Shown piece by piece: positions 187 through 26,217 of a DNA stretch of 26,373 nucleotides. Under the pieces are notes generated by a model. That model saw nothing but the letters and a program-made list of their open reading frames with translations. It did no database searches and was not told the DNA's origin. The position numbers and the translations under genes are program-made. Each line of letters begins with the position of its first letter. Position 1 is the stretch's first letter. This DNA comes from a virus. The stretch spans positions 1 to 26,373 of IMG/VR virus record IMGVR_UViG_3300048445_000053; one strand, 5' to 3'.

Positions 187-380
187 TGGAAGATACCAGT
201 CAACAGCTAGGTAGGCTACAGGCTCAGGTAGAGTCTTTACAAAGACAGATGGAAGAACTACGCATAGACGTTAAGTGTATGTCTGATGTTGTTACTAAGT
301 GGAAAGGTGCTGGTGCTTTACTGCTTATACTAGGTGCTTCACTGGGTTGGTTAGTAGATGCTATCGCTAGACGGCTATAA
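186..380 (+). CDS. XhlA-like coiled-coil membrane protein, holin candidate
   Basis: The 64-residue protein has an N-terminal amphipathic coiled coil (about residues 5-35, with LGRLQAQVESLQRQMEELR) followed by one hydrophobic membrane segment (about 42-60, GALLLILGASLGWLVDAI) and a short basic tail (ARRL). This is the architecture of haemolysin XhlA-type phage lysis proteins. It overlaps the previous gene by one base and the following spanin-like gene by 23 bases, which supports a lysis role. A holin or holin-accessory function is inferred; the 52-aa membrane protein at 11999 is a competing holin candidate. Confidence 0.7.
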   Translation: MEDTSQQLGRLQAQVESLQRQMEELRIDVKCMSDVVTKWKGAGALLLILGASLGWLVDAIARRL

Positions 381-783
381 AAAGTACTTGACTTTATTGT
401 CAATATGTGGTATATTCTTTTTACAAGGATGCACCGCTTTGGGTTTAGCTAAAGCTGTATTGCCAGGTAAATCTGGTACTAATGTTAATGCTAATGCTCA
501 GGTAGGAAAAGAGAACACACAGCAGGTAGTAGGTCAACAAGACAACACCAAGATCGAAGGTGAGAATGTTAATGTTAGTCAGAAGGAAAACGACACCAGC
601 ATTAACACATCTAAAGTAGATAGCTTAATACAAAATAATACTAATGTACCGATGTGGTACTTATTGTTGTTGGTATTAGGGTGGTTACTTCCTAGTCCAC
701 AAGAAATATGGAATGGGTTCATCGGATCAATCGAAAGAATAATTCATGGCAAGAAACGTAACATCCATAATAAAGAGACATAA
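358..783 (+). CDS. Lipoprotein with C-terminal TM, probable unimolecular spanin
   Basis: The 141-residue protein begins with a lipoprotein signal peptide (KKYLTLLSICGIFFLQGC, lipobox LQGC with Cys near residue 25). A polar, Asn/Gln-rich middle of about 70 residues follows, then a hydrophobic segment (about 99-113, MWYLLLLVLGWLLP) and a basic tail (HGKKRNIHNKET). An outer-membrane lipid anchor plus an inner-membrane TM in one polypeptide is the defining layout of u-spanins such as T1 gp11 (131 aa), which disrupt the outer membrane in the last step of lysis. The ATG at 358 lies inside the upstream holin-like gene. The topology implies a Gram-negative host. The u-spanin assignment rests on architecture alone. 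Confidence 0.75.
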   Translation: MLSLDGYKKYLTLLSICGIFFLQGCTALGLAKAVLPGKSGTNVNANAQVGKENTQQVVGQQDNTKIEGENVNVSQKENDTSINTSKVDSLIQNNTNVPMWYLLLLVLGWLLPSPQEIWNGFIGSIERIIHGKKRNIHNKET

Positions 784-1102
784 CTTAGATACAAAAGTCG
801 ATATGTATACTGTCCCAGCAAAGAACACTGCTGAGATACATATGATTTATATCTTAGCTACTGCTGGTAATGCAGATGCTGATCTGTATTGGTACGACAG
901 TCACTCAGCAACAGAGTATCCGTTAGCTCATGCTAAAGCATTACAAGCTACTAACGGTGAGTATTTGTTATTAACCGATTTACAAATAGATTTAAAAGAA
1001 AACGACATACTAAGAGTTCAGAATAGTGACACAGCAAGTACAATTACTTACATGGTTAGTATGAATTTAGCACCATCAATTGCAACACAATTTCATTCAT
1101 AG
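746..1102 (+). CDS. Hypothetical small beta-rich protein, possibly virion-associated
   Basis: This 118-residue protein overlaps the spanin-like gene by 38 bases. After a short N-terminal segment (ARNVTSIIKRHNLDTK) the sequence alternates hydrophobic and polar residues, as expected of a beta-sandwich (IHMIYILATAG, LYWYD, YLLLTDLQIDL, ITYMVSMNL). There is no signal peptide or TM. Small beta-sandwich proteins in this part of marine podovirus genomes are often head- or tail-decorating proteins, but I recognise no specific family, so the function is unknown. The SD is weak (GAAAGAA), consistent with translational coupling. Confidence 0.7.
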   Translation: MARNVTSIIKRHNLDTKVDMYTVPAKNTAEIHMIYILATAGNADADLYWYDSHSATEYPLAHAKALQATNGEYLLLTDLQIDLKENDILRVQNSDTASTITYMVSMNLAPSIATQFHS

Positions 1103-1111
1103 GAGATAGAT

Positions 1112-1177
1112 ATGCCAGGATACGGATACGGTAAGCCAATGAAGAAGAAGAAGAAACCAGTAAAGAAAAAGAAGTAA
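1112..1177 (+). CDS. Lysine-rich 21-aa peptide
   Basis: A 21-codon reading frame begins MPGYGYGKPM and continues almost entirely as lysine, with one proline in the run. A strong AGGAGA at 1101-1106 sits 5 bases upstream of the ATG, which is why it is called despite its size. It lies between the beta-rich protein and the tail adaptor. Together with the 50-aa protein at 34 it forms a pair of polycationic mini-proteins next to virion genes. The function is unknown; DNA or RNA binding is only a charge-based guess. Confidence 0.6.
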   Translation: MPGYGYGKPMKKKKKPVKKKK

Positions 1178-1211
1178 TACCTAATAGCAAGAAAACCAAA
1201 AGGTTTAGATA

Positions 1212-1859
1212 ATGAACTACTTAGATTTAGTTAATGATGTACTAATAAGACTTAGAGAAGATGAGGTAACTGCTACAACAGATACTCCGTATTCTAAACT
1301 TATTGGTAAGTTTGTTAATGACGCTAAAAGAACAGTAGAAGATGCGTATCAATGGAATGCTTTGTCTGAAACATTAACAGTAACTACTGCTAATGATTTG
1401 TTTAACTATGTCATGACAGGATCAGGTCAACGATTCAAAGTGATTGATGTTATAAATAGTGAAGATAATTTTTTCTTAGAGTATATGCCTTTTAGTCAGA
1501 TGAACAATTTGTTTCTTAATCAGACACCACAAAAAGGTTCTCCTTATTACTATAACTTTAACGGTGTAGACGTTAACAACGATACACAAGTTGATATCTT
1601 TCCTATTCCTGATGGTGTTTATAACGTGTTCTTTAACATCTATAAACCACAAGCATCATTAAGTGCTGGTGCAGATCGGTTAGTTGTGCCTTCTGAACCT
1701 GTTCTTAAATATGCTTATGCAATGGCTGTAGCAGAACGTGGTGAGGATGGTGGACTAGCAGCACAAGAAGCTACTGCACTAGCTGATTTATCTTTAGCGG
1801 ATCATATAGCTATTGAGAATGGTAGATACAGTGACGAATATGTTTGGCATCAAGTCTAA
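1212..1859 (+). CDS. Head-to-tail adaptor (T7 gp11-like)
   Basis: The 215-residue protein is mostly helical at both ends. The N-terminus (NYLDLVNDVLIRLREDEV, then KLIGKFVNDAKRTVEDAYQW) and the C-terminal helices (PVLKYAYAMAVAERGEDGG) match the general plan of podovirus adaptor proteins (T7 gp11, P22 gp4; T7 gp11 is 196 aa), which form a dodecameric ring between portal and nozzle. The closest resemblance from memory is to marine podovirus tail tubular A-like proteins. The AAAAGG motif 8 bases upstream supports the start. Its stop overlaps the nozzle gene start (TAATG), and that adaptor-nozzle order is typical. Confidence 0.7.
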   Translation: MNYLDLVNDVLIRLREDEVTATTDTPYSKLIGKFVNDAKRTVEDAYQWNALSETLTVTTANDLFNYVMTGSGQRFKVIDVINSEDNFFLEYMPFSQMNNLFLNQTPQKGSPYYYNFNGVDVNNDTQVDIFPIPDGVYNVFFNIYKPQASLSAGADRLVVPSEPVLKYAYAMAVAERGEDGGLAAQEATALADLSLADHIAIENGRYSDEYVWHQV

Positions 1860-3478
1860 TGGCTGGAAGATTACAATCATCGACAATATCAGCACCAGGT
1901 TTTCTTGGTGTTAATACACAAGAGAGTAGTGTTGATCTTGCATCAGGCTACGCATTAGAAGCATACAACTGTGTTATAGATAAGTTTGGTCGTATAGGTG
2001 CTAGACGAGGTTGGCAGAAAGTAAACAGTTCTACTAACTCTGATCTATTGACAAACGACATTGAGTTTATTTATAACATACCTGAGACAGATGTAACACT
2101 ATGTGCTGGTAATAATTTAATACTGTCAAGAGCTAGTGGTGCAAGTACATTAGTTACTGAAGTAAGTACTACAGTAGCTGACGCAGCAGGAACAAGTACA
2201 ACAGCATACAGCATCACAGGTAATAACTGGATGGGTGCTAGTATTGTATTCGGTGAAGGACCAGATATTAGTCCTCATGCTTACTTAGCACAAGCAGGTC
2301 ATTTGCCTTTGGTCTATCACAAACTAGGAGCTAGTCATGCACACACAGGTGCTTACGGTTTTAATTTACTTAGTGACGCTGGCTCAGTACCTACCACCTA
2401 TGCTTCTGCTAGTGATTTTAAGCCTAATGTAGTTATAGGAGCTTATGGTAGAACATGGTGGGCTGACATTGTTAACGATAAACAGACACTTTACTTTAGT
2501 GCATTACTAGACGGTACTAACTTAGCAACAGGTGACTCAGGTTATTTGTCATTGATTGATGTGTTTCCTAATGGAGACGAGATAGTAGGACTAGCAGCAC
2601 ACAACGGTTTTTTAATTATATTTGGTAGAAGAAACATTGCTATTTATGCTAACCCTATTGATGTAACAAGATTAGAGTTAGTTGACTTAGTAGCTAACGT
2701 AGGTTGTATTGCTAGAGATAGTATTGTCAACACAGGTACGGATGTTATGTTTTTGTCTGACACAGGCGTAAGAAGTATTGCTCGTGTTATTCAGGAAAAG
2801 TCAGCACCTATTAATGACATATCGTTTAATGTTAGAGATGAGTTAGTTGCATTTGCAGAAGCAGAAACTAATAAGATAAAGATTAAAGCAGCTTACTATC
2901 CTAAAGATGCTTTTTATATTTTAACACTACCAACATCTAAGTATGTATTTTGTTTTGATCTACGAGGTAGACTACAGAATGGTGCAGCAAGGGTTACTAT
3001 CTGGGATAGCATTGAACCCACCGCCTTACATGTCACTTATACAGGCGATCTTCTCATAGGTAAAGAAGGTTACTTAGGTAAATACTTTGGGTTCTTAGAT
3101 GACACAGCTATTTATAGATTACGTTACTACACTAACTACTTTGACTTAGGTAACCCAACAACTATGAAGTTCTTAAAGAAAGGTAACTTTGTAGTGGTAG
3201 GTGGAGTAGGACAAGACGTAGCGTTGAAGTATGGTTTTGATTACATTAACTCATATCGATCAATAACCAAACAATTGCGTACTGGTTCTGTTTATGAATA
3301 CAACATTGGTGAGTATGCTATTGCAGAGTTTTCTAGTGGTTTAGTATTAGAAGAAGTTAACAGTAACTTAGGTGGCTCAGGTTCTATTATGCAATTAGGG
3401 TTTGAAGCAGACATTAATTCTGCACCTTTGTCAATACAAAAGATAGATATTTATGTTAAAGCAGGTAAAACAATTTAA
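1859..3478 (+). CDS. Tail nozzle protein (T7 gp12 / P22 gp10-like)
   Basis: I choose the ATG at 1859, which overlaps the preceding stop as TAATG and gives a 539-residue protein starting MAGRLQSSTISAPGF; an in-frame start at 1844 is possible. The N-terminal segment APGFLGVNTQESSVDLASGY, followed by NCVIDKFGRIGARRGW, is typical of podovirus nozzle or packaged-DNA-stabilising proteins. The rest is beta-rich with recurrent Gly-Asp turns, consistent with a beta-propeller. It would form the hexameric nozzle below the adaptor. T7 gp12 is longer (794 aa) and P22 gp10 shorter (472 aa). Fold assignment is by context and N-terminal motif. Confidence 0.7.
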   Translation: MAGRLQSSTISAPGFLGVNTQESSVDLASGYALEAYNCVIDKFGRIGARRGWQKVNSSTNSDLLTNDIEFIYNIPETDVTLCAGNNLILSRASGASTLVTEVSTTVADAAGTSTTAYSITGNNWMGASIVFGEGPDISPHAYLAQAGHLPLVYHKLGASHAHTGAYGFNLLSDAGSVPTTYASASDFKPNVVIGAYGRTWWADIVNDKQTLYFSALLDGTNLATGDSGYLSLIDVFPNGDEIVGLAAHNGFLIIFGRRNIAIYANPIDVTRLELVDLVANVGCIARDSIVNTGTDVMFLSDTGVRSIARVIQEKSAPINDISFNVRDELVAFAEAETNKIKIKAAYYPKDAFYILTLPTSKYVFCFDLRGRLQNGAARVTIWDSIEPTALHVTYTGDLLIGKEGYLGKYFGFLDDTAIYRLRYYTNYFDLGNPTTMKFLKKGNFVVVGGVGQDVALKYGFDYINSYRSITKQLRTGSVYEYNIGEYAIAEFSSGLVLEEVNSNLGGSGSIMQLGFEADINSAPLSIQKIDIYVKAGKTI

Positions 3479-3486
3479 GGACAAGT

Positions 3487-4239
3487 ATGAGTGATTATAC
3501 AAAAGCAACTAACTTCACGTTAAAAGATGGATTAACTACAGGTGATCCTCAGAAGATTATTAAAGGTTCTGAGATAGATGCAGAGTATAACGCTATTGCG
3601 TCTGCTGTTTCATCTAAGGCTGATCTAAATAGTCCTACGTTTACAGGTACACCATCAGCACCTACAGCATCTACAGGAACATCTAGTACACAAGTAGCTA
3701 CAACAGCGTTTGTGCAGTCAGCTTTAGTTGGTGCGTATCCTGTTGGTTCTATTTACATGAACGCTACTGTAGCTACTAATCCTGCTACCTTGTTAGGTTT
3801 TGGTACTTGGGTAGCGTTTGGTGCAGGTAAAGTTCCAGTAGGTATAGATACTGGTGACTCAGACTTTAATACTGTAGGAGGAACTGGTGGTAGTAAAACA
3901 AATAGTGTTTCAGTAACTACTTCAGGTACTTCTGGGTCTACTGCACTTACAGAAGCTCAGATGCCAAAACACTATCACAAAATGCGAGGACCAACATTTA
4001 CTACTGGTTATCCTCAAGGAAGTTCAGGATCAAGTGGTATTTATTTTGGTGGAAGTCCTGACGATAGTGGTCATTTATATGGCACTTACTCGACAGGTGG
4101 TGGAGCTACTTCTGCAGGTTATGAAACAGGAACAGGTAATGGTGACGGTCATACTCACAGTATTTCTTCTTCAGGAACTGGTACAGCAGATGTAGTCCAA
4201 CCGTACATCGTAGTTTATATGTGGAAGCGTACAGCTTAA
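3487..4239 (+). CDS. Short tail fibre / receptor-binding collar protein
   Basis: The 250-residue protein has an N-terminal virion-attachment region (about 1-50, with KIIKGSEIDAEYNAIASAV). A repeat-like stalk follows (about 49-80, SPTFTGTPSAPTAS... TTAFVQSAL) and then a C-terminal collar domain starting YPVGSIYMNAT. The C-terminal half carries His motifs (MPKHYHKM and HTHS) resembling the His-x-His metal sites of T4 gp12-type fibre tips, and ends VVQPYIVVYMWKRTA, the standard end of tail-collar domains. It probably trimerises and contacts the host surface. AAGGACA lies 7 bases before the ATG. Gly/Ser-rich variable loops at about 170-215 are the likely specificity region. Confidence 0.85.
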   Translation: MSDYTKATNFTLKDGLTTGDPQKIIKGSEIDAEYNAIASAVSSKADLNSPTFTGTPSAPTASTGTSSTQVATTAFVQSALVGAYPVGSIYMNATVATNPATLLGFGTWVAFGAGKVPVGIDTGDSDFNTVGGTGGSKTNSVSVTTSGTSGSTALTEAQMPKHYHKMRGPTFTTGYPQGSSGSSGIYFGGSPDDSGHLYGTYSTGGGATSAGYETGTGNGDGHTHSISSSGTGTADVVQPYIVVYMWKRTA

Positions 4240-4532
4240 TGACAGAAGAGGATATCGAAAGGTATTTAAAAAAGTCAAAAGACAAAGACATAGAGACTGA
4301 TAATCTAATAGAGAACGAACATGGTTTTATGTCTTGGACAACGTGGGAAGATTACTTAGTAGCTATTCAAGTTTATGGTGATGGTAATTATTGGAATCAA
4401 CAGTTAGATAATTTAGCTAAAGAATTGGGATATGAAAAGATTATGATGGCTACTAAAAGAAACTACAAAGGTTTTGAAAGAAAGTTTGGGTTTAAACTAA
4501 CAGGGTATGTATTAGAGAGAAGGGTACAGTAA
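4239..4532 (+). CDS. Truncated GNAT-like protein (possible T7 gp13 counterpart)
   Basis: Starting at the TAATG overlap (ATG 4239) this gives 97 residues. The C-terminal half (LDNLAKELGYEKIMMATKRN, then GFERKFGFKLTGYVLERRV) has the shape of the last helix and strands of GNAT acyltransferases. The N-terminal half lacks a recognisable acetyl-CoA-binding loop, so catalysis is doubtful. In T7, gp13 lies in the equivalent position between tail and ejection-protein genes and is needed for virion assembly. An assembly role by analogy is inference. It overlaps both neighbours by one base. Confidence 0.6.
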   Translation: MTEEDIERYLKKSKDKDIETDNLIENEHGFMSWTTWEDYLVAIQVYGDGNYWNQQLDNLAKELGYEKIMMATKRNYKGFERKFGFKLTGYVLERRVQ

Positions 4533-5620
4533 TGGGCAAAAGCGTTAAAGGTTTACTTGGTGCTGCAGCTCCTGCGATAGGGACAGCATTAGGCGGTCCT
4601 ATTGGAGGAGCTATAGGTTCTGCTGTTGGTGGAGCTATTGCTGGTAATCAAATATCAGGTGCTGTCAATAGAGCAGGTAGTCAATACGCTGGTCAATTAG
4701 ACAGATATGGTCGAATGGGTATGTTTAGACCTGTTGGCGTTAAAACTTATTTTGGAGAATCTAAGTTTGATGTAGACCCGACTACTGGACAACTTAAGTC
4801 TGCTTCATATGACGCTTCTCCTGAAGTATTAGCTAGACAACAGCAACTAGGTTCTTTAATGGGAACGAGTCTTGGACAAGCTGAACGCGCTGCTGCCCTA
4901 CAGCCACAGTTTGAACGAGCAGGTGGTGGTCTTTTAAACTTAGGTGAGAGTTATCTTGCACAAACTCCTGAACAGCTTAGACAGCGTTATATGCAACAAC
5001 AGATGGATGTCTTACGCCCTTATGACATTGAAGAAGAACAACGTCTTGCATCAAGTGTGTTTGGTCGTGGTCGAGGAGGGCTAAGTGTTGGTACTGGTGG
5101 ACAACCAGAACTACAGGCGTTATCAGAATCTCGTAGGCGTAGAGATTTACAGTTAGCTGCACAAGCTGAACAGGCTTCACAACAGCAGTTAGGTTTTGGT
5201 GCAGGTTTATTAGGTCAGGGAGCAGGAGTATTAACATCAGGCTACCAGACTCAAGCAGGTGCATTAGCTCCGTTCCAAGCTCAGTTCCAGACACAACGTG
5301 ATTTAGAAACTGCTGCACAACAACCATTACAACTTGGATCTACATTAGGTCAAGCTGCAATGGGTGGCGGTCAGTTTGCTGCTGGTCTAGGCGCACAAGG
5401 AGCGTTAGGACAATTACAAGCAGGTCAAGCAGGTGAGGCAGCACGTTATAACATTATGCGTGGATTAATGGAAAGTCCTACTGTACAGCAAGGAGCTAAA
5501 CAGGGAGCAGGAATGTTAGGTGACTTCTTTGGGAATATTTTTAGACCTGGTGGTGGTATTGGTGGCGGTATGACCGGCAGCAGTATAGGTGTTGATTTAG
5601 GTATGAGGAGGAGAGACTAA
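4532..5620 (+). CDS. Glycine-rich internal virion / ejection protein
   Basis: The 362-residue protein starts with a Gly/Ala-rich hydrophobic stretch (about residues 7-42, GLLGAAAPAIGTALGGPIGG and onward) typical of ejection proteins that insert into the host envelope. The middle is Gln/Arg-rich and helical (about 95-240), and the C-terminus is again Gly-rich (GMLGDFFGNIFRPGGG). Its position after the tail genes and before larger internal proteins corresponds to T7 gp14. Start and stop both overlap neighbours (TAATG). No enzymatic motif is visible. Confidence 0.65.
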   Translation: MGKSVKGLLGAAAPAIGTALGGPIGGAIGSAVGGAIAGNQISGAVNRAGSQYAGQLDRYGRMGMFRPVGVKTYFGESKFDVDPTTGQLKSASYDASPEVLARQQQLGSLMGTSLGQAERAAALQPQFERAGGGLLNLGESYLAQTPEQLRQRYMQQQMDVLRPYDIEEEQRLASSVFGRGRGGLSVGTGGQPELQALSESRRRRDLQLAAQAEQASQQQLGFGAGLLGQGAGVLTSGYQTQAGALAPFQAQFQTQRDLETAAQQPLQLGSTLGQAAMGGGQFAAGLGAQGALGQLQAGQAGEAARYNIMRGLMESPTVQQGAKQGAGMLGDFFGNIFRPGGGIGGGMTGSSIGVDLGMRRRD

Positions 5621-6699
5621 TGGCAACAGTCGCATCGTTATTTGGTCCTTCAGCAGAAGAAATTGTTTTTGCTAGAAAGAAAGAAGAAGAGGACGCAGCA
5701 AGACAAAAATACTTAGCTAGACTACAAGGTGCTGGTCAGGGTCTTGGTCCTTTTGCGTGGGCAGCTAGGGCTGGAGTGGACGTAGGAGAAACTTTAAGAA
5801 CTGCTGGTGGTATGTTCGGAGAGCAGATAGAAGATCCTCTTATTAAAAAGTACAACCGTATCAATCAGATTCTTGTCGAAGAAGGCGGTGACTTAAACGA
5901 TCCAGAAGCACTTAAAAGGGTAGCTGATAAGTTACAAGCTGAAGGCTATACTAACGAAGCTGTTCGTCTCTATGATCGTTCAAGTGCTTTATCTACTGCT
6001 GCTCGTCAACTTGATATTGAAGAAGGTAAAATGACGCAGTTAACAACAGCTTATGTTGACAAAGACGGTAATCCTGTGATGGTTAATAAAAACACAGCAC
6101 AGTTTTTTACTCCTGATGGTACTCCTATACCAGCAGATGAGGTTATACCAAAAACAACTTGGGACGATGTAACACTAAGACGTATGGCAGTTGAAAAAAT
6201 TGAAGGCAAAAAAGCAGCACAGGATCCTAATAGTTGGCAACCTGTAGGTCTTTACACCGAAGATGGTACTAATTTAATTCAAGGTGGTCCAACAGGATTT
6301 CAAGCTGCTTTAGAAGAAAGATTACAGCAAGAGCAAGAAGCACGAGATAAAGAAATAAGAAACAGAGAAGGTGTTCCTGATATTTATGATGATACTGCAA
6401 CAGACGTAGAAGAAATAAGAAGACGAGAAGCAGAAGCTGGGCGAGAAGGTGACTCTATTGGTGTTATTGCAGAATCGGCTGGAAATGAGTTTGGAGGAGC
6501 TTTATATGGTGGAATAACTGATCCAAGTTATCAACCTCCTAATAATATAGGTAGATCAGAAAGGTCTTTAACTCCTCGCACGCCAAGGTATACACTTGAT
6601 CAAGGAATAACTCCAGGAATGTTATTCGATCCTAGAAGAATGAATGAGGAAGATATAGTTGTACCACCTTGGGATATTCGTTATCAAAATAGATTTTAA
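5620..6699 (+). CDS. Internal virion protein, function unknown
   Basis: The 359-residue protein begins MATVASLFGPSAEEIVFARK, an opening I associate with internal proteins of marine podoviruses. The N-terminal 130 residues are charged and helical (KKEEEDAARQKYLARLQ, LADKLQAEGYTNEAVRLYD-like repeats); the remainder is low-complexity and rich in Asp, Glu and Pro. There is no signal peptide and no clear TM, apart from a small Gly-rich segment near 35-60. It is presumably packaged in the capsid and ejected with the DNA, as its neighbours would be. The family is unassigned. Confidence 0.6.
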   Translation: MATVASLFGPSAEEIVFARKKEEEDAARQKYLARLQGAGQGLGPFAWAARAGVDVGETLRTAGGMFGEQIEDPLIKKYNRINQILVEEGGDLNDPEALKRVADKLQAEGYTNEAVRLYDRSSALSTAARQLDIEEGKMTQLTTAYVDKDGNPVMVNKNTAQFFTPDGTPIPADEVIPKTTWDDVTLRRMAVEKIEGKKAAQDPNSWQPVGLYTEDGTNLIQGGPTGFQAALEERLQQEQEARDKEIRNREGVPDIYDDTATDVEEIRRREAEAGREGDSIGVIAESAGNEFGGALYGGITDPSYQPPNNIGRSERSLTPRTPRYTLDQGITPGMLFDPRRMNEEDIVVPPWDIRYQNRF

Positions 6700-6708
6700 G
6701 GGTTATCA

Positions 6709-8430
6709 ATGGCTTTAAGTGATATAGACAAACTAGCTAAAAGCGACCAAGAAGAAGCTAGAAAAGCTTTACAAACAGGAGATTGGAGTAAGGTATCTAC
6801 TGCTGCTATGCGTGTCTTAGGTGATGTACCTTATGATACTAGCGATGTTATATCAACACAGTTTGGAAGAGGAGCTACTTCTACTATAAGAGGTATAGCT
6901 GATCTGTTTGGTGCGGATATTACCGATGACGTAGAAGAAGAAAAGAAATCAAGAGCAATGTTTGAAACTAATCCTGCTGCCTCTTGGACTTCTTACATTG
7001 GTGGTAGTGTTCTCGATCCTGTTAATCTAGTACCACTTGCAAGAGTTAAGACAGCAGGTGAGGCTTTTTTAAAACTAGGGGCTTTTGGCGGTATTACTGG
7101 TTTTGTTGAGCCTGTTTACGATGAGTATGAAGATAGTCGCTTAACTAACGCAGCATTTGGTGCAGGTACTTTAGGTTTATTTGGTGCTGGTGTCACTGGT
7201 TTAGTTAATAAGATTGCAGGTAAATCCGCTAAAGAAGTAGAAGAGGCTTTAACATCTCAAGCTCAAGATAGTTTGAATGCTGCGACAACTACACCTAGTA
7301 TGGTTGGTCCTAAGCCTAGATTAAAAAGTGGTCCTGCTACAGTAAGAGAACCTGGAGTAACACCACAAGCTGCTGGTTTAACTCCAGAAGATACGTTTGG
7401 TGTTCCCACTACTCCTGATGAAGTATTAGATGTTGCTTTTAGTCCACCTAAATTTAACAGGACTCATGGCAAACCTACACCAGGTTTTCAAAATAAAGGA
7501 CCAGTCGATTTTGAATCTGATTTAGATAAAGCTCTTTATATTATAGGTAAAGAAGGCGAACGTTCTGCTGCTGATGCTAAATTTTTAGATTTTGTAATGA
7601 AAAATACAGGACTAGATGAAGCAGGAGCAAGAGCAGAAGGTAGAAAAATTGCAAAGGTAGTGGCTCAAGAATTAAAAGATGTTGCTAGTTCTTCTGAAAA
7701 AAGAATACCTACTACTTGGAAACCTGATACATCTAGATTACCTAAGCCTAGTTTAACGTCAGTACAACAAGCTGCAGCTAATGTTAAAAATTTAAAAGAA
7801 GCTCCTAAGTTATCATCCAAATTGTTTGATGAACCTATTGTTCATGACAACTCTAAACTAGTGTTTAGTTCTGATATAGATAAAGCTGCTGTTGCGGTTA
7901 AAAAGAACAACGTCAATAAAAAAGAGTATTTAGATTATGTTAAGAATACGTTTGGCATTAACGAACAGCAAGCTAAAAAGATTATTGACGAAATATCTTT
8001 TGAGGTCTTACAAAAGTTAAATAAAACTAAAGCAACTGAAGGTAAGCTCGGAGCTTCAACTTCAGTACCTATTTCTAAAACTGTAGACAACATTGTAAAC
8101 CCTGTCTTTAAACACATGGACGATGAGTCAAGATACATTTATAATTATAGTAAGTCTATAACTAGTCCTGACGGTAAACCTAGAGTTAAGATGGATGAAG
8201 GATTTCAAAAGTTTACTACAAAGATGCGTCAAATATTTCCTGATATAAAGGTTAACGAAGCTATTGCAACTGCTCAAGGTTATCAAAGGTTAATGGATAA
8301 TCTTAAACTAGAAAAAGGTGCTAAGTTTACGTCAACTAATATTAGAGACTTTGCTGCTAACAGAGAAGCTAACTTAGATGCTTTCATTGCGTCAGTTAAA
8401 CGAGGTGATATGGATGGGTGCTGGTCATGA
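6709..8430 (+). CDS. Large internal virion protein, segment 1
   Basis: The 573-residue protein is preceded by TAAGGG 8 bases before the ATG. It has an amphipathic, Gly-rich hydrophobic zone at about residues 90-165 (SWTSYIGGSVLDPVNLVPLA; AFGAGTLGLFGAGVTGLV) that could enter membranes. A Pro-rich linker (about 190-265) and long charged helices to the end follow. The C-terminus (NIRDFAANREANLDAFIASVKRG) looks like the middle of a longer helical protein rather than a natural domain end. Its TGA overlaps the next start as ATGA (8427-8430). It is probably the first part of a gp15/gp16-like ejection apparatus divided among three genes. Confidence 0.6.
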   Translation: MALSDIDKLAKSDQEEARKALQTGDWSKVSTAAMRVLGDVPYDTSDVISTQFGRGATSTIRGIADLFGADITDDVEEEKKSRAMFETNPAASWTSYIGGSVLDPVNLVPLARVKTAGEAFLKLGAFGGITGFVEPVYDEYEDSRLTNAAFGAGTLGLFGAGVTGLVNKIAGKSAKEVEEALTSQAQDSLNAATTTPSMVGPKPRLKSGPATVREPGVTPQAAGLTPEDTFGVPTTPDEVLDVAFSPPKFNRTHGKPTPGFQNKGPVDFESDLDKALYIIGKEGERSAADAKFLDFVMKNTGLDEAGARAEGRKIAKVVAQELKDVASSSEKRIPTTWKPDTSRLPKPSLTSVQQAAANVKNLKEAPKLSSKLFDEPIVHDNSKLVFSSDIDKAAVAVKKNNVNKKEYLDYVKNTFGINEQQAKKIIDEISFEVLQKLNKTKATEGKLGASTSVPISKTVDNIVNPVFKHMDDESRYIYNYSKSITSPDGKPRVKMDEGFQKFTTKMRQIFPDIKVNEAIATAQGYQRLMDNLKLEKGAKFTSTNIRDFAANREANLDAFIASVKRGDMDGCWS

Positions 8431-9059
8431 GTAAGCGTTGTTATCTTGATAAGTTTGCTAAATTCTTACCAAAAGATATTAGTCCTAATTTAACAGCAGA
8501 TCAAATTAAAAATCTATCGGCTTTAGATTCAAAAGACGCTGCTAAATTATTAGGTCGTATGTCAGAGATACCTGATAAACGTATGACTGATCTTATGTCC
8601 AAGATGCTTAGTCCAAAGCAAGTAGGTAAAGTTTCTAGAATAGGACAACCTATAACAGAAAACGAAAAAGCTGCACAAGCAGAAGCTAAAAGAATAGCAG
8701 AAGAGTTATCTCCAGATCAATTAGAAAACGGACAACGAGCAGCCCAAATTATAGCTAGTCAATATTCTAAAGGAGACTTATTATCTGAAGGGCAGAGAGA
8801 ACTTGTTGCTACACACTTTGCAGGAAGAGTAGACGAAACGATTGGTGTTCTTGAACAGTTAGATTACGCTATGGATAAAGGTGATGACGCAACAGTGTCT
8901 TATCTTTGGAATAAACTAACACCAACTATAACTTTAGGCAGTGCTTTAATGGGAGACAAAAACGCATTGTCTAGAGCGTTAAGCGATCAAAAAAGAATCA
9001 ATAAAATTATTGCAGAAGCTGGGGATATTACCCGTCTGTTTGAAAATGGAGCTTGTTAA
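8427..9059 (+). CDS. Large internal virion protein, segment 2
   Basis: The start is placed at ATG 8427, which overlaps the previous stop (ATGA), giving 210 residues; an in-frame GTG at 8418 is less convincing. The product is all-helical and charged, with recurrent short helices (DQIKNLSALDSKDAAKLLGR, MSKMLSPKQVGKV, QLDYAMDKGDDATVSYLW) and no motif I can name. It is sandwiched between two ejection-type genes in a different frame from each and ends in a TAATG overlap. A role in the same internal complex is inferred from position. Confidence 0.55.
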   Translation: MSKRCYLDKFAKFLPKDISPNLTADQIKNLSALDSKDAAKLLGRMSEIPDKRMTDLMSKMLSPKQVGKVSRIGQPITENEKAAQAEAKRIAEELSPDQLENGQRAAQIIASQYSKGDLLSEGQRELVATHFAGRVDETIGVLEQLDYAMDKGDDATVSYLWNKLTPTITLGSALMGDKNALSRALSDQKRINKIIAEAGDITRLFENGAC

Positions 9060-11170
9060 TGGCGTTAAACCCTAGATGTAGAATGTTGATTCAACAGATA
9101 GTTGAAGGATTCAGAGGTAAATCTAGTAATCCTGAAATAGACAAAGCTCAACTAGTTGCTGATATGACTAAATCTTTAGTTGATATAGCAGACAGACCTA
9201 GTTTACGGGAAAGTGCCGGTAGCATGATAAGAAATAACTTTTTGTCTGCTCCGTCTACTACCTTTAAAAACTTTATGGGTAACTTAGCAAGAGTTCTTTC
9301 AGCCCCTATTGACCGTTTTGCTGCTGGTCTAGCGACTAGAGACGCTAAATTAATTAAAGAAGCTGGGGATATTCTTGTCGGTTACACCAAAGCATTTGCT
9401 GAAGTGTTTCCTAGATTTATTGGTGGCTATCAAAATAGAAACATTGTCTTTGACGGCAGGACCGCTAAGGAAGTAGATTTTTATTTAAAGTTCCCAGGTC
9501 AAGACCCATCGAAAGAGTTGTCTGCTTTTGATAAAGGTTTAAACACTGTCGTTACGTTTCCTCAAAGTTTACAAAGAGGGATTGACGAAGGGTTTGCTAC
9601 GTTCTTTGAAAGAGCGCAGTATCAGGTTGTGATGAACAGATTAAAGAACGCTCCTAATGAAGAAGTATTAACACGTTTAGGAATGACTAGAGACGAACTA
9701 GTAGATACTTTAGAAACTGCTGTGACCAGTAAGGCACGAGGCGGTAAAAGAAATGTTCAAGAAGAACGATTGTTTGATGCTGTAGCGAAGATTGATCCTG
9801 AAGCTGCAAAGTTAATCGAGGAGTTTTCTCTTTATGGTACGTTCAGAAGTAAATTAGGTACTAGTCTTATAGATACCAGTGCTTCTAAATGGTTTGATAT
9901 CGTTCAAAAAGTACCTGAGCTTGCTGCAATTACTCCGTTTATTATTACACCCGTTAACGTAGCTAAGTACGGTGCAGGTTATGTCCCAGGTTTAGGTCTT
10001 TTGAGAACTAGACAAACGATGAAAGACATAAAACGATTGAATATAAAAAAGCAATCTCTTATTGCAAAACTAGGTAAGAGTAGAACAGACATAACTAGAG
10101 CTAAAGTACAAAAGCAGATAGATGAAACGTCTGGAGAAATACAAGCTAAACAACAGTTAAAAAATGATTTTATGGGTCAACAGTTGTTAGGTTTAGGTTT
10201 TACTGGTTGGGCGTATGCAATGGTACAAGACGGTCAACTAACTGGTGATTACCCTGCTAACCCAGCACTACGAGCTAGGATGCAAGAGCAAGGAATACCA
10301 CCTAACTCCGTAAAGATTGGAGATCGTTGGGTAAGTTACTCAGGTATAGAACCGTTACATACTGTGTTTGCTATATTTGCTAATGGTAAAGAAAAAGCAG
10401 AGCAGCAAAGACTAGAAGGCAACGAAGCATTAAGTGTAGAAACTTTAGCATCAGTTGCTGGAGTGATTAAAAATTCATTCTTAGATAAAACTTTTACCAC
10501 TCAGTTAGGTGAGTTTATGGGTGCTATTACTTCTAATGAAGGGTTTAATAAAGTTAAAGGTATGGCTGTAGGTGCGACAAACGGTCTTACTCCTAACTTA
10601 TTTAACATGATTGCAAGACTTGAGGATCCTATTCGTAAGCAGACTAAAGATGAAAACTTTTCTACTTGGGTCTTAAACAACATGAAAGCTAGACTACCAG
10701 GTTTGCGTAGTGATCTTCCTGATAGAGTTAGTCCTATTACAGGTGAGCCTGTATCCTTAGGAAGTTCAGCAGAAATTGTTTCTGGTTTTAAGTTTGAAGA
10801 AGTAAATAGAACTAAATTACAAAAACTATTTGACAATCCAGAATTAAAAATAGCACCGCCATCTAGTAATGTTTTTGGTATTACGTTAAACAACGAGCAA
10901 TATTCTAGAATGTCTCAGTTAATGGGTGAACATACTAATCAGACTCTAAACTATTTAGCTTCTTCAGAAGGATTTATGTCTCTTCCTGATAGTCTTCAAG
11001 CTAAAGGAATTAAAGATGCAGTAAGTTCAATCCGTAGTAGCGTTCGTAAAATGATACTGGCTGAACTGATTCAAGATAAAAGTAGTAAAGAATATACTGA
11101 CTTTATAAATAATGAGTATAAGAAAAAAGGTATTAATCCTTACACTAACCCTGACTATATTGTGGACTAA
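9059..11170 (+). CDS. Large internal virion protein, segment 3 (gp16-like core)
   Basis: From ATG 9059 (TAATG overlap) the protein has 703 residues. The segment NNFLSAPSTTFKNFMGNLAR followed by SAPIDRFAAG resembles the conserved core of large podovirus ejection proteins. Several moderately hydrophobic stretches occur (about 300-320, LAAITPFIITPVNVAKYGAG; about 375-395, LLGLGFTGWAYAMV), as expected for a protein forming a channel across the envelope. No transglycosylase motif is seen; peptidoglycan cleavage may be supplied by the adjacent LysM-lysozyme gene. T7 gp16 is 1318 aa, so this is about half its size. Confidence 0.65.
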   Translation: MALNPRCRMLIQQIVEGFRGKSSNPEIDKAQLVADMTKSLVDIADRPSLRESAGSMIRNNFLSAPSTTFKNFMGNLARVLSAPIDRFAAGLATRDAKLIKEAGDILVGYTKAFAEVFPRFIGGYQNRNIVFDGRTAKEVDFYLKFPGQDPSKELSAFDKGLNTVVTFPQSLQRGIDEGFATFFERAQYQVVMNRLKNAPNEEVLTRLGMTRDELVDTLETAVTSKARGGKRNVQEERLFDAVAKIDPEAAKLIEEFSLYGTFRSKLGTSLIDTSASKWFDIVQKVPELAAITPFIITPVNVAKYGAGYVPGLGLLRTRQTMKDIKRLNIKKQSLIAKLGKSRTDITRAKVQKQIDETSGEIQAKQQLKNDFMGQQLLGLGFTGWAYAMVQDGQLTGDYPANPALRARMQEQGIPPNSVKIGDRWVSYSGIEPLHTVFAIFANGKEKAEQQRLEGNEALSVETLASVAGVIKNSFLDKTFTTQLGEFMGAITSNEGFNKVKGMAVGATNGLTPNLFNMIARLEDPIRKQTKDENFSTWVLNNMKARLPGLRSDLPDRVSPITGEPVSLGSSAEIVSGFKFEEVNRTKLQKLFDNPELKIAPPSSNVFGITLNNEQYSRMSQLMGEHTNQTLNYLASSEGFMSLPDSLQAKGIKDAVSSIRSSVRKMILAELIQDKSSKEYTDFINNEYKKKGINPYTNPDYIVD

Positions 11171-11180
11171 CGGAGTAACG

Positions 11181-11999
11181 ATGCCAAAAGTAACAGTACA
11201 ACCTGGAAGTAATTTGTTTCAGCTAGCTCAAGGAACTGGGTACACTCCAGAACAGTTAGCTGCTTACAACATGATAGAAGACCCTAATCAAATTAGAGCA
11301 GGTCAGGATATATTTATTCCTTATTCACGACAAGAGTTTGAATCGTTTGCTGGTCCAATGACACAACCTGTACAAGCGACTACGCCTGTTCAATCTACAG
11401 CGACACAACCTGTTGTCCAAACTAGGCAAGCGCAAATAACAGACCCTCCTATAGAAATGTGGAACACCTCTTACGGTCAGTTATCTAAACAAGAAAAATG
11501 GTTTGGAGGACAAGATGCGGTAAACAAATACAAAGCAGACAATCCAAATGTTCAATTAACTCCGGCACAAGAGTATGTAATTGCTAATGAAGGTTACTTA
11601 CCTGATCCTTATTACTTAAATAAAGAAGAGAAAGAAAAAGGTATTCTTACTCAAGGAGTAGGTCAGACTAAGAGAAAAGGTAAAGACTACATTGCGTTAG
11701 GATTTCCTGCAACTTATGAGGATAGGATTGCAGACCTTAAACGTAAGATGGGTGCTGACTTAGTAGACGCTGTTGAACAAAATGAGCCTGAGAAGTTTAA
11801 GGCATTAGCTGACTTAGCGTACCGAGGAGATATTGGTCCTAAATGGGCTGGTCACTATAAGGCTAATCGATTAGATGATGCCTTTGAAGAGTTCTGGAAT
11901 AACAAAGAATACAAAGACTTAATAGCTGATAGTCCTAATAGTGGTGTCTTGTCTAGGATAAGAAAAAACTCTGAGATACTATTTGGTAAGACTAAGTAA
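11181..11999 (+). CDS. LysM-lysozyme (GH24-like) peptidoglycan hydrolase
   Basis: The 272-residue form starts at ATG 11181 behind CGGAG. Residues 3-47 are a LysM peptidoglycan-binding module (TVQPGSNLFQLAQGTGYTPE, ending AGQDIFIPYS). A Thr/Gln/Pro linker (about 60-90) leads to a lysozyme domain. ANEGYLPDP (E137) and LTQGVGQT (T157) match the order of the catalytic Glu and the TIGIGH-type segment of T4-like GH24 lysozymes; the usual Asp could be D142 or within the NKEEK loop. It may be the lysis endolysin or a virion enzyme acting with the ejection proteins. An in-frame ATG at 11112 would add a hydrophobic, signal-like leader (see findings). The stop overlaps the next gene (TAATG). Confidence 0.8.
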   Translation: MPKVTVQPGSNLFQLAQGTGYTPEQLAAYNMIEDPNQIRAGQDIFIPYSRQEFESFAGPMTQPVQATTPVQSTATQPVVQTRQAQITDPPIEMWNTSYGQLSKQEKWFGGQDAVNKYKADNPNVQLTPAQEYVIANEGYLPDPYYLNKEEKEKGILTQGVGQTKRKGKDYIALGFPATYEDRIADLKRKMGADLVDAVEQNEPEKFKALADLAYRGDIGPKWAGHYKANRLDDAFEEFWNNKEYKDLIADSPNSGVLSRIRKNSEILFGKTK

Positions 12000-12157
12000 T
12001 GGAAAACTTTGTCATCAACTTCTGGGAAATAATCTCAGGGTTATTAGTAGTACTGTTCTTAGCAATAACCTGGAAGGCTGAGATAGGCGCGAGAATCTCC
12101 GTGTTAGAAGAGAAAGTCCGCGCCTTGTTTGATCTCATTAATAGTAAGAAGGATTAA
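11999..12157 (+). CDS. Small membrane protein, 52 aa, holin candidate
   Basis: This 52-residue protein has one N-terminal TM segment (about residues 9-24, WEIISGLLVVLFLAITW) followed by an amphipathic coiled-coil helix (GARISVLEEKVRALFDLINS) and a basic end (KKD). The ATG overlaps the lysozyme stop (TAATG). Adjacency to a lysozyme and its size and topology fit a holin or holin regulator, the mirror image of the coiled-coil-then-TM protein at 186. Its TAA lies in the TTAA also used by the convergent nrdJ gene. Function is inferred from topology and context. Confidence 0.65.
   Translation: MENFVINFWEIISGLLVVLFLAITWKAEIGARISVLEEKVRALFDLINSKKD
12154..12157. other. Convergent stop codons sharing TTAA
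   Basis: The plus-strand 52-aa gene ends with TAA at 12155-12157 and the minus-strand nrdJ ends with TAA read from 12156-12154. The self-complementary TTAA serves both. No hairpin-plus-T-run terminator is visible on either side. Confidence 0.9.
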
Positions 12158-23554: not shown

Positions 23555-23727
23555 TATGCTTTCTCCCATTCGAACGCGTAAGCGTCAATCTTTATATATT
23601 CGTCTTCATCGTGACAGTACGCCACATAAACCGTGCCGTCTAAATCCGCATTAGGTGAAACCGATACATCAAGAGCGTACTCAACATTGGTAGCGTGGTA
23701 TCTAATCCAATTTGAACGATCAATCAT
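23554..23727 (-). CDS. Acidic 57-aa protein, hypothetical
   Basis: This 57-residue frame (MIDRSNWIRYHATNVEYALD ... AYAFEWEKA) is joined to both neighbours by TAATG overlaps. The alternating pattern LDGTVYVAYCHDEDEYIKID suggests an antiparallel beta hairpin. Function unknown. Confidence 0.7.
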   Translation of the reverse strand: MIDRSNWIRYHATNVEYALDVSVSPNADLDGTVYVAYCHDEDEYIKIDAYAFEWEKA

Positions 23728-23915
23728 TATGCAATTCCCTTTCCTTTTAATTGTTCTATTGCGTCCATTGCGTCTACAGCGTCAAACAAACTACCGACAG
23801 CACCATAAGCGCGAAGACAATACGCCATTTCGTCTGTTGCTCGGCGTTTAACTACATCCATGACAATAGAATCATTCATTAATTCGTTAAGTATTTCGTT
23901 ATATCTTTTTTTCAT
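23727..23915 (-). CDS. First gene of the minus-strand unit, 62-aa hypothetical
   Basis: ATG 23915 is chosen because GGGAAG lies just upstream; it gives 62 residues beginning MKKRYNEILNELMNDSIVMD. In-frame ATGs further upstream (up to 23972) lack an SD. The protein is helical, with an Ala/Asp-rich C-terminal half (GSLFDAVDAMDAIEQLKGKG). It is promoter-proximal in the replication operon, so it should be among the earliest products. Function unknown. Confidence 0.65.
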   Translation of the reverse strand: MKKRYNEILNELMNDSIVMDVVKRRATDEMAYCLRAYGAVGSLFDAVDAMDAIEQLKGKGIA

Positions 23916-23978
23916 TTGCTTCCCTTTCGTTATGTTGCATTGCGTCATTAATTGGTTTGTTTCGTGCGACAAACGAAT

Positions 23979-24006
23979 CCTATAATTATTACTTTGTACT
24001 AGTCAA
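23979..24006 (-). promoter_or_regulatory. Putative sigma70 promoter, minus strand, proximal
   Basis: On the minus strand TTGACT (24006-24001) is separated by 16 bases from TATAGG (23984-23979). It would direct transcription into the replication unit starting at 23915. Confidence 0.45.
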
Positions 24007-24051
24007 TACCTAGTGTCTTAATTGTCATAACTTTGCCATAACTCCATAGCG

Positions 24052-24079
24052 CCTATATATAAAGGTATACCCCTATCAA
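24052..24079 (-). promoter_or_regulatory. Putative sigma70 promoter, minus strand, distal
   Basis: On the minus strand TTGATA (24079-24074) and TATAGG (24057-24052) are 16 bases apart, the same architecture as the proximal copy. The spacer contains a GGTATACC palindrome that could be an operator. Confidence 0.4.
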
Positions 24080-24160
24080 TTATTTTTATAGTACGACCTA
24101 GTCTATTAATTCATCGCTAAAAGGTACATAAACGCCACACACTTTTACGACTGTTCAGTA

Positions 24161-24216
24161 ACTCTTATAACTCTTATGTCTTATATAAGAGTACTCTTAT
24201 GTATTATATAAGACCT
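24161..24216. repeat. 23-bp tandem repeat with nested palindromes
   Basis: Units at 24171-24193 and 24194-24216 agree at 19 of their first 20 positions (CTCTTATGT, then one variable base, then TTATATAAGA). A further partial copy, ACTCTTATA, lies at 24161-24169. Within it, TCTTATATAAGA (24179-24190) and ATAAGAGTACTCTTAT (24185-24200) are perfect palindromes. This could be an operator array or origin iterons. Confidence 0.8.
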
Positions 24217-24224
24217 GTAAAGAC

Positions 24225-24290
24225 ATGGGGGGAGTGCCAACAACACCGGGAGCGACCGTAGAGCACCTTAACAGACACAAAAAAGGCTAA
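24225..24290 (+). CDS. Possible 21-aa peptide in the control region
   Basis: A frame from ATG 24225 reads MGGVPTTPGATVEHLNRHKK and one more residue before TAA. It coincides with the only GC-richer stretch of the control region. There is no good Shine-Dalgarno (only GTAAAG upstream) and it lies upstream of the strong plus-strand promoter. It may be a leader peptide, or the composition may reflect a structured site instead. Confidence 0.25.
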   Translation: MGGVPTTPGATVEHLNRHKKG

Positions 24291-24401
24291 AATAGGCATA
24301 ATACTGCATAAATTAAAGAGTAACTATGTAGAAAAAAGACATTTAGAATTAATGGTTTATAATATATAACTAGATAGCGTCCATTTAGAATAAAAAAGGA
24401 C

Positions 24402-24430
24402 TTGACAAAGGGCTAAAAGTATGCTAGAAT
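24402..24430 (+). promoter_or_regulatory. Strong sigma70-type promoter before the terminase unit
   Basis: TTGACA (24402-24407), a 17-base spacer and TAGAAT (24425-24430) with an extended -10 TGC make a near-consensus host promoter. Transcription should start near 24437, giving a roughly 125-base leader before the terminase small-subunit gene. Confidence 0.75.
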
Positions 24431-24466
24431 CAACCCACTATACAGCACATTCGGACAACACTATAT

Positions 24467-24482
24467 TCATTCTAGTTAAATA
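24467..24482 (+). repeat. 16-bp direct repeat, copy 2
   Basis: TCATTCTAGTTAAATA is identical to 20208-20223. It lies in the predicted leader of the terminase unit. Confidence 0.75.
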
Positions 24483-24521
24483 TTAATATAAATAATGTCA
24501 AATATCTGTATAGATATTAAT

Positions 24522-24539
24522 AGTTACTAATAGTTACTA
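24522..24539 (+). repeat. 18-bp shared leader element, terminase copy
   Basis: AGTTACTAATAGTTACTA is identical to the minus-strand sequence at 20193-20176. It ends 24 bases before the TTG start of the small terminase gene, with AAAAGGA in between. Two TAGTTACTA dyads are spaced one helical turn apart. Confidence 0.8.
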
Positions 24540-24563
24540 AACAGTACTAAAAGGATAAACATT

Positions 24564-24965
24564 TTGTCCCTTGAAGATTCGAAGCCTGTAAAAAGAGGGC
24601 GTGGCAGACCTCGAAAGACTGAAGTTGAAGCAAAAAAGAAACGAAATAAAGTTGGTCGTCCTCCAGGTGAGGCAGCTAGGATTAAAGAGTTTCATGCAAG
24701 ACTATTAGCTACGAGTGGTGAAACGGTTATTAACACAATAATCACTAAAGCACTTGATAACGATGACAAAGATCAGGTAGCGTGTCTTAAAATGTGTATT
24801 GACCGTGTGTTACCGATGTCTTATTTTGAAAAGGGTAGGGATGCAGGTAGAGGTAGTGTTAACATTCAGATATCTATGGTAGGCGATAAGCAATCTGAGG
24901 TACTAGAGCAAGAAGAAGTAACTGATGTAGAGTTTGAGACCGTAAATGTCAGACCTGAAGATTAG
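24564..24965 (+). CDS. terS: Terminase small subunit with AT-hook motifs
   Basis: The 133-residue protein starts at a TTG codon 8 bases after AAAAGGA; no ATG start is available. Residues 8-17 (VKRGRGRPRK) and about 29-35 (KVGRPPG) are two AT-hook minor-groove-binding motifs. They are followed by helices (ARIKEFHARLLATSGETVIN, KDQVACLKMCIDRVLPMSYF) and an acidic tail. Its place directly upstream of the large terminase gene, with a 20-base overlap, and its DNA-binding N-terminus identify it as the small subunit that selects phage DNA for packaging. The acidic C-terminus probably contacts the large subunit. Confidence 0.8.
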   Translation: MSLEDSKPVKRGRGRPRKTEVEAKKKRNKVGRPPGEAARIKEFHARLLATSGETVINTIITKALDNDDKDQVACLKMCIDRVLPMSYFEKGRDAGRGSVNIQISMVGDKQSEVLEQEEVTDVEFETVNVRPED

Positions 24966-26217
24966 TTTACTTCCCTGGCAACAGGAGGTCTGGACTGATC
25001 CAGCTAGATTTAAGGTTATAGCTGCTGGTCGTAGGACAGGTAAGAGTAGAATGGCTGCGTGGAGACTCATAGTGTCTGCGTTAGAAGCTGATAAGGGTCA
25101 CGTCTGGTATGTAGCCCCTACTCAGCAACAGGCTAGGGACATTATGTGGCAACAGCTGCTGGAGTTAGGTAATCCGGTCATAGCAAATAGCCATGTAAAC
25201 AACATGCAGTTAACATTGATTAATGGTTCTATCATATCGTTAAAGGGAGCAGATAGACCAGAGACAATGCGGGGTGTAGCTTTAAAGTTTGTCGTACTCG
25301 ATGAGTATGCAGATATTAAACCTACAGTGTTCGAGCAGATTCTTAGACCAGCGTTAGCTGACTTGAAGGGTCACTGTATATTTATTGGTACACCGAAGGG
25401 ACGTAATCACTTCTATGACATCTACAAGATGGGTAGGAGTGAAAAACCAGAAACTAAAGACTGGAAGTCCTGGCACTTTACTAGCTTTGATAATCCACTG
25501 CTAGAAAAGGAAGAGATTGAAATAGCAAAGAACACCATGTCTACGTTCGCATACAGGCAGGAGTTCATGGCTAGTTTTGAAGCACCACAGTCAGAGATAT
25601 TTAAAGAAGACTGGGTGGTAGTCAAAGATAAAGACGATGAGCCAGAGTATGGTACTTACTACATGGCTGTTGACTTGGCAGGTTTTGAGAACGTATCAAA
25701 GCAAGCTAGTAACAAGAAGAAGTACCTAGACCAAACGTCTATAGCTATTGTCAAGGTAGGTGATGACAATAAATGGTGGGTAGATAAGGTTGATGCAGGA
25801 AGGTGGGATATTAAAGAAGTATGCGAGAGAATCCTAAAGCATGTCCAATTATACGGCATTCAAGTAATTGGAATAGAAAAAGGTTCTTTGATGCGAGCGT
25901 TAACACCTTATCTAACAGAGATGATGTTAAAGCAAGGTGTGTATCCAAGAATAGAAGAAATACGACTAGGCAATAAGAGTAAGGTAGACAGAGTTGTAGG
26001 TGCGTTGCAGGGTAGGTTTGAACACAAGCAGGTAGAACTCTGTGATGGTGACTGGGTAAGAGAGTTTAAAGATGAGTTACTAAACTTTCCTACCACTGGT
26101 GTGCATGATGACATGGTTGATTCAGTGAGTCTAATAGCTCACATAGCTAATGCAGCAGTGTACTTTGAAGATGATTTTGATGATTACGAACCCTTAGACA
26201 TTATATCAGGATATTAA
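24946..26217 (+). CDS. terL: Terminase large subunit
   Basis: The 423-residue packaging motor has an ATPase domain with Walker A AAGRRTGKS (26-34), Walker B FVVLDEY (D119, catalytic E120) and a coupling-type segment FIGTPKGRNHFYDIY (about 146-160). The RNase H-like nuclease has MAVDLAG (D243), IGIEKGS (E311) and VHDDMVDS (D388, D389). The ATPase pumps DNA into the procapsid and the nuclease cuts the concatemer. It is short compared with T7 gp19 (586 aa) but has all motifs, so it is a compact TerL. It overlaps terS and is followed by the portal gene. Confidence 0.95.
   Translation: MSDLKISLLPWQQEVWTDPARFKVIAAGRRTGKSRMAAWRLIVSALEADKGHVWYVAPTQQQARDIMWQQLLELGNPVIANSHVNNMQLTLINGSIISLKGADRPETMRGVALKFVVLDEYADIKPTVFEQILRPALADLKGHCIFIGTPKGRNHFYDIYKMGRSEKPETKDWKSWHFTSFDNPLLEKEEIEIAKNTMSTFAYRQEFMASFEAPQSEIFKEDWVVVKDKDDEPEYGTYYMAVDLAGFENVSKQASNKKKYLDQTSIAIVKVGDDNKWWVDKVDAGRWDIKEVCERILKHVQLYGIQVIGIEKGSLMRALTPYLTEMMLKQGVYPRIEEIRLGNKSKVDRVVGALQGRFEHKQVELCDGDWVREFKDELLNFPTTGVHDDMVDSVSLIAHIANAAVYFEDDFDDYEPLDIISGY

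Follow-up and report, generated by a model that had tools for sequence, protein, structure and literature searches.

Tandem SdhR-type operators in a phage control region: a probable case of exchangeable arrays for host DNA-binding regulators

The repeat array in the control region of the phage analysed here is very probably a set of cis-acting operators that belong to DNA-binding regulators of the host; here the set comprises two tandem operators of the SdhR type (SdhR being a regulator of the TCA cycle) together with extra half-sites. The assignment is made by sequence resemblance to bacterial operators, and the same slot in related phages holds arrays of other kinds. The window, that is the whole stretch of DNA analysed, is an entire IMG/VR record of 26,373 bases.

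Two SdhR-type operators in tandem

SdhR is a GntR-family regulator of the HutC subfamily with operators from Burkholderiales, and its operator is a 26-nt palindrome, TCTTATGTCTTATATAAGACATAAGA, as given in the available part of the published account (PMC4494728). The phage array is made up of these elements:

24160..24220, no strand: operator array of alternating TCTTAT/ATAAGA half-sites, comprising two SdhR-type operators and a partial repeat
24159..24177, plus strand: direct repeat, two copies of the 9-bp TAACTCTTA, a partial third unit that supplies further half-sites
24172..24197, plus strand: SdhR-type operator 1, its first 19 nt exactly those of the published SdhR palindrome, with 7 mismatches over 26 (PMC4494728, available part)
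24195..24220, plus strand: SdhR-type operator 2, with 1 mismatch in the first 19 nt and 5 over 26 (PMC4494728, available part)
24185..24200, no strand: 16-bp palindrome ATAAGAGTACTCTTAT, the right half-site of operator 1 joined to the left half-site of operator 2

The initial annotation had described two 23-bp units and a partial third, and this is borne out: ACTCTTATGTCTTATATAAGA (24170-24190) and ACTCTTATGTATTATATAAGA (24193-24213) share 20 of 21 bases and repeat every 23 bp, and the 9-bp repeat provides the third. The array takes the top TRF score (81) among the 19 rows for the window, and a tandem match of 20/21 appeared in none of 2000 dinucleotide shuffles of 24000-24560, the best of which reached 18. 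Both perfect palindromes that had been reported, one of 12 bp (TCTTATATAAGA, 24179-24190) and an overlapping one of 16 bp, are present, and the alternative pairings they were said to allow are explained by the alternation of TCTTAT and ATAAGA half-sites. The 16-bp palindrome is by itself unremarkable, since 58 of 2000 such shuffles yield a perfect palindrome of at least 16 bp.

With 7 and 5 mismatches over the full 26 nt, the outer right half-site of the operators is degenerate. Elsewhere in the window the next-best match to the 19-nt SdhR word has 5 mismatches, and none of 200 whole-window shuffles contains one with 2 or fewer. The two best 26-mer matches of the window both fall inside the array, the third best having 9 mismatches. 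These comparisons take the Burkholderiales operator as their standard. The word TCTTATGTCTTATATAAGA is identical in the SdhR operators of Burkholderiales and in the phage array (PMC4494728, available part). Tandem operators, about 30 bp apart, are also found upstream of aceA in the Burkholderiales SdhR system; the phage operators are 23 bp apart and sit in a phage control region, whereas those of Burkholderiales sit at metabolic genes. Of the switch operator suggested in the initial annotation, the operator part stands, by sequence and for an SdhR-type host regulator; the idea of a phage switch protein acting there does not.

Genomic setting

The array lies between minus-strand replication genes on its left (a T7-gp4-like primase-helicase and PolA) and an ORF in terS position followed by terL on its right. 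Its immediate surroundings are:

23727..23972, minus strand: first minus-strand ORF, 81 aa, without a family match
23977..24006, minus strand: weak predicted promoter of the minus-strand early genes
24227..24289, plus strand: conserved core adjoining every array (G-run, variable spacer, (A)CCTTAACAGACACAAAAAAG), from 38 aligned relatives
24402..24430, plus strand: predicted sigma-70 promoter, TTGACA-17-TAGAAT with a TG extension, upstream of terS
24564..24965, plus strand: ORF in the terS position, 133 aa, called terS by its place before terL and without a family match
24946..26217, plus strand: terminase large subunit (phrog_2, E 5.2e-47)

The array had been placed between promoters of the two strands. 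Predicted promoters do flank it, but promoter-like sites number 6 in the whole window, where 5.0 would be expected. The core CTAACAGAYACAAAAAAG, with a variable spacer and a G-run, adjoins every array, in the window (24227-24289) and in relatives.

A close cultured relative was not found, terL matching 1388 phage records that are all below 60% identity. A distant search with the control region returned a single record, Manatee Spring phage (MW202796), in which 40 bp of the array are matched; these 40 bp are intergenic and again lie between divergent gene blocks. Elsewhere in the window (6709-11170), three overlapping ORFs of 573, 213 and 705 aa resemble one frame-split internal virion protein gene, and the last of them (705 aa) matches phrog_6651.

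The SdhR word in bacteria and in other viruses

The 13-mer core GTCTTATATAAGA gave 19 matches in four Comamonadaceae genomes against none for a reversed control; since palindromic sites match on both strands, this amounts to roughly two to three places per genome. In Comamonadaceae the word marks SdhR-type operons, lying upstream of aceA and also in an mdh / gntR-sdhC region, which encodes GntR and UTRA domains, Sdh_cyt and malate dehydrogenase. One of these genomes has a further site beside a gene that, judged by eye, resembles an aminotransferase gene. Two copies of the core were found in at least 119 stretches of bacterial genomes. The matches listed include many Comamonadaceae and other Burkholderiales as well as Prochlorococcus and Prevotella, and among them the start of an isocitrate lyase gene lies within 500 bp of the double site at 67 of 118 cellular loci. 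Paired TCTTATATAAGA sites, each group with its own fixed spacing, are seen among the matches listed in Prochlorococcus (46 bp in total; L302, L308, L338 and similar) and in Prevotella (34 bp in total; L296, L298 and similar), both distant from Burkholderiales.

In viruses, the exact SdhR 19-mer occurs in 108 stretches. Relatives of the window proteins, mostly terS/terL at 30-60% identity, are encoded at 66 of the 89 loci that were read; the other 23 are without them, some perhaps only as fragments. For the 84 loci with the 19-mer and without the family's DNA core (58 of which fall in one DNA cluster), the word lies inside an ORF of at least 100 aa only once, compared with 971 of 1680 random positions. 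Around the 19-mer at these loci (within 200 bp), words for DnaA, Fur and NtrC are enriched 32-, 47- and 60-fold, figures to which that one cluster contributes 58 of 84 loci; with one locus taken per cluster (n = 17), DnaA and NtrC words co-occur at two loci each, Fur words at one and GGGGAGGG at none. The G-rich tracts GGGGAGGG accompany the SdhR site, at a distance of up to 200 bp, in 22 of the 84 loci, and in 0 of the 17. At one locus (L433), sites for Fur, SdhR, NtrC and again Fur are packed within about 170 bp.

A fixed slot with exchangeable content

Relatives were gathered as 80 loci out of 228 stretches by terL and as 92 stretches by the core pattern. All control regions share a G-run, a variable spacer and (A)CC(C/T)TAACAGAYACAAAAAAG, followed by a TTGACA-17-bp promoter and terS. 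The array lies directly 5' of the G-run in relatives, and its content differs among lineages. Conservation, which the initial annotation had looked to as a check, thus applies to the position of the array and not to its sequence. Of the 59 unique control regions, 14 contain SdhR words and another 18 contain DnaA boxes, with no region having both; DnaA-box arrays usually carry Fur- or NtrC-like sites too, with up to seven DnaA boxes next to the G-run and AT-rich core (L084, L140). In 13 further regions the only recognised sites resemble those of Fur, NtrC or Zur, and for 14 arrays no scanned motif gave a match.

The DnaA, Fur, NtrC, Zur and LexA words used in these scans, which we take to be the consensus, were chosen after the arrays had been read by eye. 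Across the 59 regions, 25 SdhR words fall in the array and 4 in the rest of the same loci, a 144-fold difference in density, and the corresponding counts for DnaA are 75 and 13 (133-fold). The figures are 9 and 8 for NtrC (26-fold), 12 and 10 for Zur (28-fold) and 28 and 67 for Fur (9.6-fold), while the LexA control word occurs 0 times in arrays and 4 times in the rest. Letter-permuted motifs did as well in 0 of 300 trials for SdhR and for DnaA, in 4 of 300 for NtrC and in 8 of 300 for Fur, so that the enrichment of Fur and NtrC is weaker than that of SdhR and DnaA. Several array classes have no regulator assigned (AACACACAGTGTTTT, GTCTCATTTATACAACA, ACTGTATAC and CGCG) and weigh against the host-operator reading; the AACACACAGTGTTTT and GTCTCATTTATACAACA arrays had no match in a search against phages.

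Strong sigma-70-like promoters lie mainly at +180 to +270 bp from the G-run in the 57 regions with full flanks. Promoters in the 30 bp before the G-run are found in 3 of these 57, with no other strong promoter within the array region. Because the strong promoters lie mainly outside the array, a classical overlapping operator is not the obvious reading. KOPS is GGGNAGGG; the G-run as a KOPS was considered and set aside, the window having GGGGAGTG and other relatives being without the KOPS word.

Near-identical genomes carry unrelated arrays. L014 and L016 are 99.76% identical over 4967 bp from the core onward, and their arrays upstream are unrelated, Fur/Zur-like in the former and CGCG in the latter. 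L010 and L011 (99.4% identity over 2082 bp) have a AACACACAGTGTTTT and an SdhR array, respectively. When seven array classes are mapped on a terL tree of 54 sequences, 20 changes are required (minimum 6, shuffled mean 31.2), and a 36,208-bp contig has a different array variant at each end. Chimeric assembly could yield single cases of replacement, all of them less easily. The early minus-strand genes adjoining the array are also hypervariable among close relatives (L014 vs L012, L014 2020-4300).

The initial annotation had called the repeats iteron-like, a claim that does not survive their replacement by unrelated words in near-identical genomes (99.8% backbone). An iteron origin and an operator for a phage repressor were both rejected on the ground of this cassette replacement together with the identity to a bacterial operator.

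Possible functions of the array

The reading we favour, with some hesitation, is that the array works as a generic nucleoprotein checkpoint where early genes give way to late ones; binding in vivo, the block and its relief are steps that we infer. A host protein would bind the array once the DNA is in the cell. Bound there, it would form a compact block, with the hypervariable minus-strand early module on one side of it and the conserved core and terS on the other. This block might serve as a checkpoint, either for the entering DNA, an idea put forward for the T5 injection stop signal (iss), or for polymerases crossing from one module to the other. Release or displacement of the regulator would relieve it. 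Because SdhR, DnaA, Fur/NtrC and other arrays interchange on near-identical backbones, what would count is the occupation of the slot by a high-affinity host protein, whichever that is. Such swapping of different regulators in one fixed slot, the scarcity of promoters there and the parallel with T5 favour a checkpoint. Against a checkpoint on entry, binding of a protein inside the cell would not necessarily halt the entry of DNA, and the link between boxes and stop in T5 is itself a proposal. A checkpoint, regulation by host state and titration all need binding by a host regulator as their first step.

Could the array instead sense the physiology of the host? The bound regulator would then repress or activate the divergent promoters and tune infection to carbon (SdhR), iron (Fur), nitrogen (NtrC), zinc (Zur) or replication state (DnaA), comparable to the "lytic deferment" proposed for CtrA. 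This is possible, though on balance not probable. In favour of sensing, the array occupies a control region flanked by divergent gene blocks, each of the recognised regulators reports nutrient or growth state, and sites for Fur, SdhR and NtrC can be combined, as in L433; CtrA sites of alphaproteobacterial phages bind and regulate (PMC9437464, available part). The strong sigma-70-like promoters, however, lie 180-270 bp from the G-run and outside the array, and frequent exchange of regulators on near-identical backbones would rewire the logic every time.

The operators could also act as a sponge, replicating phage DNA stripping the regulator from host operons, or DnaA from the host origin, with derepression of sdh, mdh, aceA and iron uptake as the outcome. 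Such titration would require no promoter and would be served by near-consensus tandem sites, and with exact SdhR words at two to three places per genome in the four genomes, phage copies would soon outnumber those of the host. We regard it as unlikely, since the array constantly abuts the same G-run and core, an arrangement needless for pure titration.

A packaging site beside terS, also suggested at the outset, or a short direct terminal repeat there is rather unlikely as the explanation, and the data on termini are ambiguous. Left ends of contigs lie 100-189 bp upstream of the G-run in 9 of 55 cases, some at identical bases across contigs; in a 36,338-bp contig, array, G-run and a further 36 bp together form a perfect terminal repeat of 221 bp; and the ends of two more contigs fall 33-37 bp after the G-run begins. 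Yet of the 15 long contigs (35 kb or more) in which the site was located, 10 have the array over 0.8 kb away from both ends, and the 36,208-bp contig has variants at its two ends that differ. Breaks at the array can be explained otherwise, because strain variation there would itself break assemblies. A terminus would also leave the host operators unexplained, though it could coexist with them.

An origin of replication with initiator-binding repeats, of which the DnaA-box class would be the plain form, is improbable. The DnaA boxes beside the G-run and AT-rich core in L084 and L140, and a change in the sign of GC skew at about 24.2 kb, speak for it. The skew, however, follows gene direction, its change at 24.2 kb coinciding with the switch in gene direction just as one at about 12 kb does, DnaA boxes occur in only 18 of the 59 control regions, and GntR repressors are not known to act as initiators. 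The origin put forward in the initial annotation also sits badly with the replacement of the array on near-identical backbones; the conserved core, rather than the array, could be an origin. A chance or structural repeat (hairpin or cruciform) with no protein partner is very improbable, for although 16-bp palindromes arise in 58 of 2000 local shuffles, the array has the exact published operator word, which is rare elsewhere in the same contigs and stands at SdhR-type operons in bacteria.

T5 and other phages with host-regulator sites

Phages controlled by LexA and Spo0A reportedly also use host regulator sites, which are said, unlike the arrays here, to overlap the promoters of defined switch genes. 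In alphaproteobacterial phages, clustered CtrA sites were tested and found to bind and to regulate, and "lytic deferment" has been proposed for them (PMC9437464, available part). As in the arrays, host-regulator sites are dense in an intergenic gap or terminal repeat, turn over fast among close relatives and are found in several unrelated phages (PMC9437464, available part). As CtrA sites are clustered, so the SdhR sites of the window are concentrated in one intergenic region. The arrays here differ in being for predicted metabolic, metal, nitrogen and replication regulators and in being exchanged as cassettes. DnaA sites have no positional asymmetry in the phage set of that study, according to its available part (PMC9437464). 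If the array lies in a short terminal repeat, this would be shared with phiCbK-like CtrA sites (PMC9437464, available part) and with T5. No report of SdhR, Fur or NtrC operator arrays in phages was found in the available text of the open-licence literature.

In T5 (AY543070) the annotated iss spans 9140-10149, in the left terminal repeat. Boxes for LexA (9409, one mismatch) and DnaA (9510) lie within it, together with Fur-like repeats over 9553-9725 and with TGTGCRAATCCGAC repeats. Counted simply by consensus, Fur sites do not stand out in T5 1-12000 (the iss has 4 of the 12 matches at 3 mismatches), and the array character of the iss comes from overlapping repeats, not from consensus counts. 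At the same place phiR2-01 has two LexA boxes, one DnaA box and five Fur-like matches. The mechanism of the injection stop is described as poorly understood in the available part of PMC13250531, where DnaA boxes are mentioned and Fur and LexA boxes are not named for the iss. Like the phage arrays, the iss is a long noncoding stretch with several host-regulator boxes (LexA, DnaA, Fur-like) and tandem repeats; unlike the array of the window, it measures about 1 kb, lies in a terminal repeat of 10.2 kb and includes TGTGCRAATCCGAC repeats as well as a nick site. The likeness between the two is one of composition.

It is conceivable, though doubtful, that host-operator arrays are a general modular element of phages, any high-affinity regulator (SdhR, DnaA, Fur, NtrC, Zur, LexA, CtrA) being drafted as an exchangeable cassette for a checkpoint between early and later DNA, with the T5 iss as one case. 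If true, a broad aquatic phage group would couple to its hosts by exchanging whole sets of host operators. The phage sequence would tell which host regulators matter and hint at the host lineage (Burkholderiales for SdhR), and there would be a concrete list of proteins (Fur, LexA, DnaA) for the unsolved T5 injection stop.

A query with a DnaA/Fur array matched 167 phage records, and one with a Fur array of Cronobacter phage CR3 matched 291, mostly unannotated intergenic stretches of ~150-kb phages, with T5-like phages matching near 9-10 kb. Tandem Fur-like boxes are seen in long noncoding gaps of Klebsiella phage KP2025 and Cronobacter phage CR3 (L525, L526).
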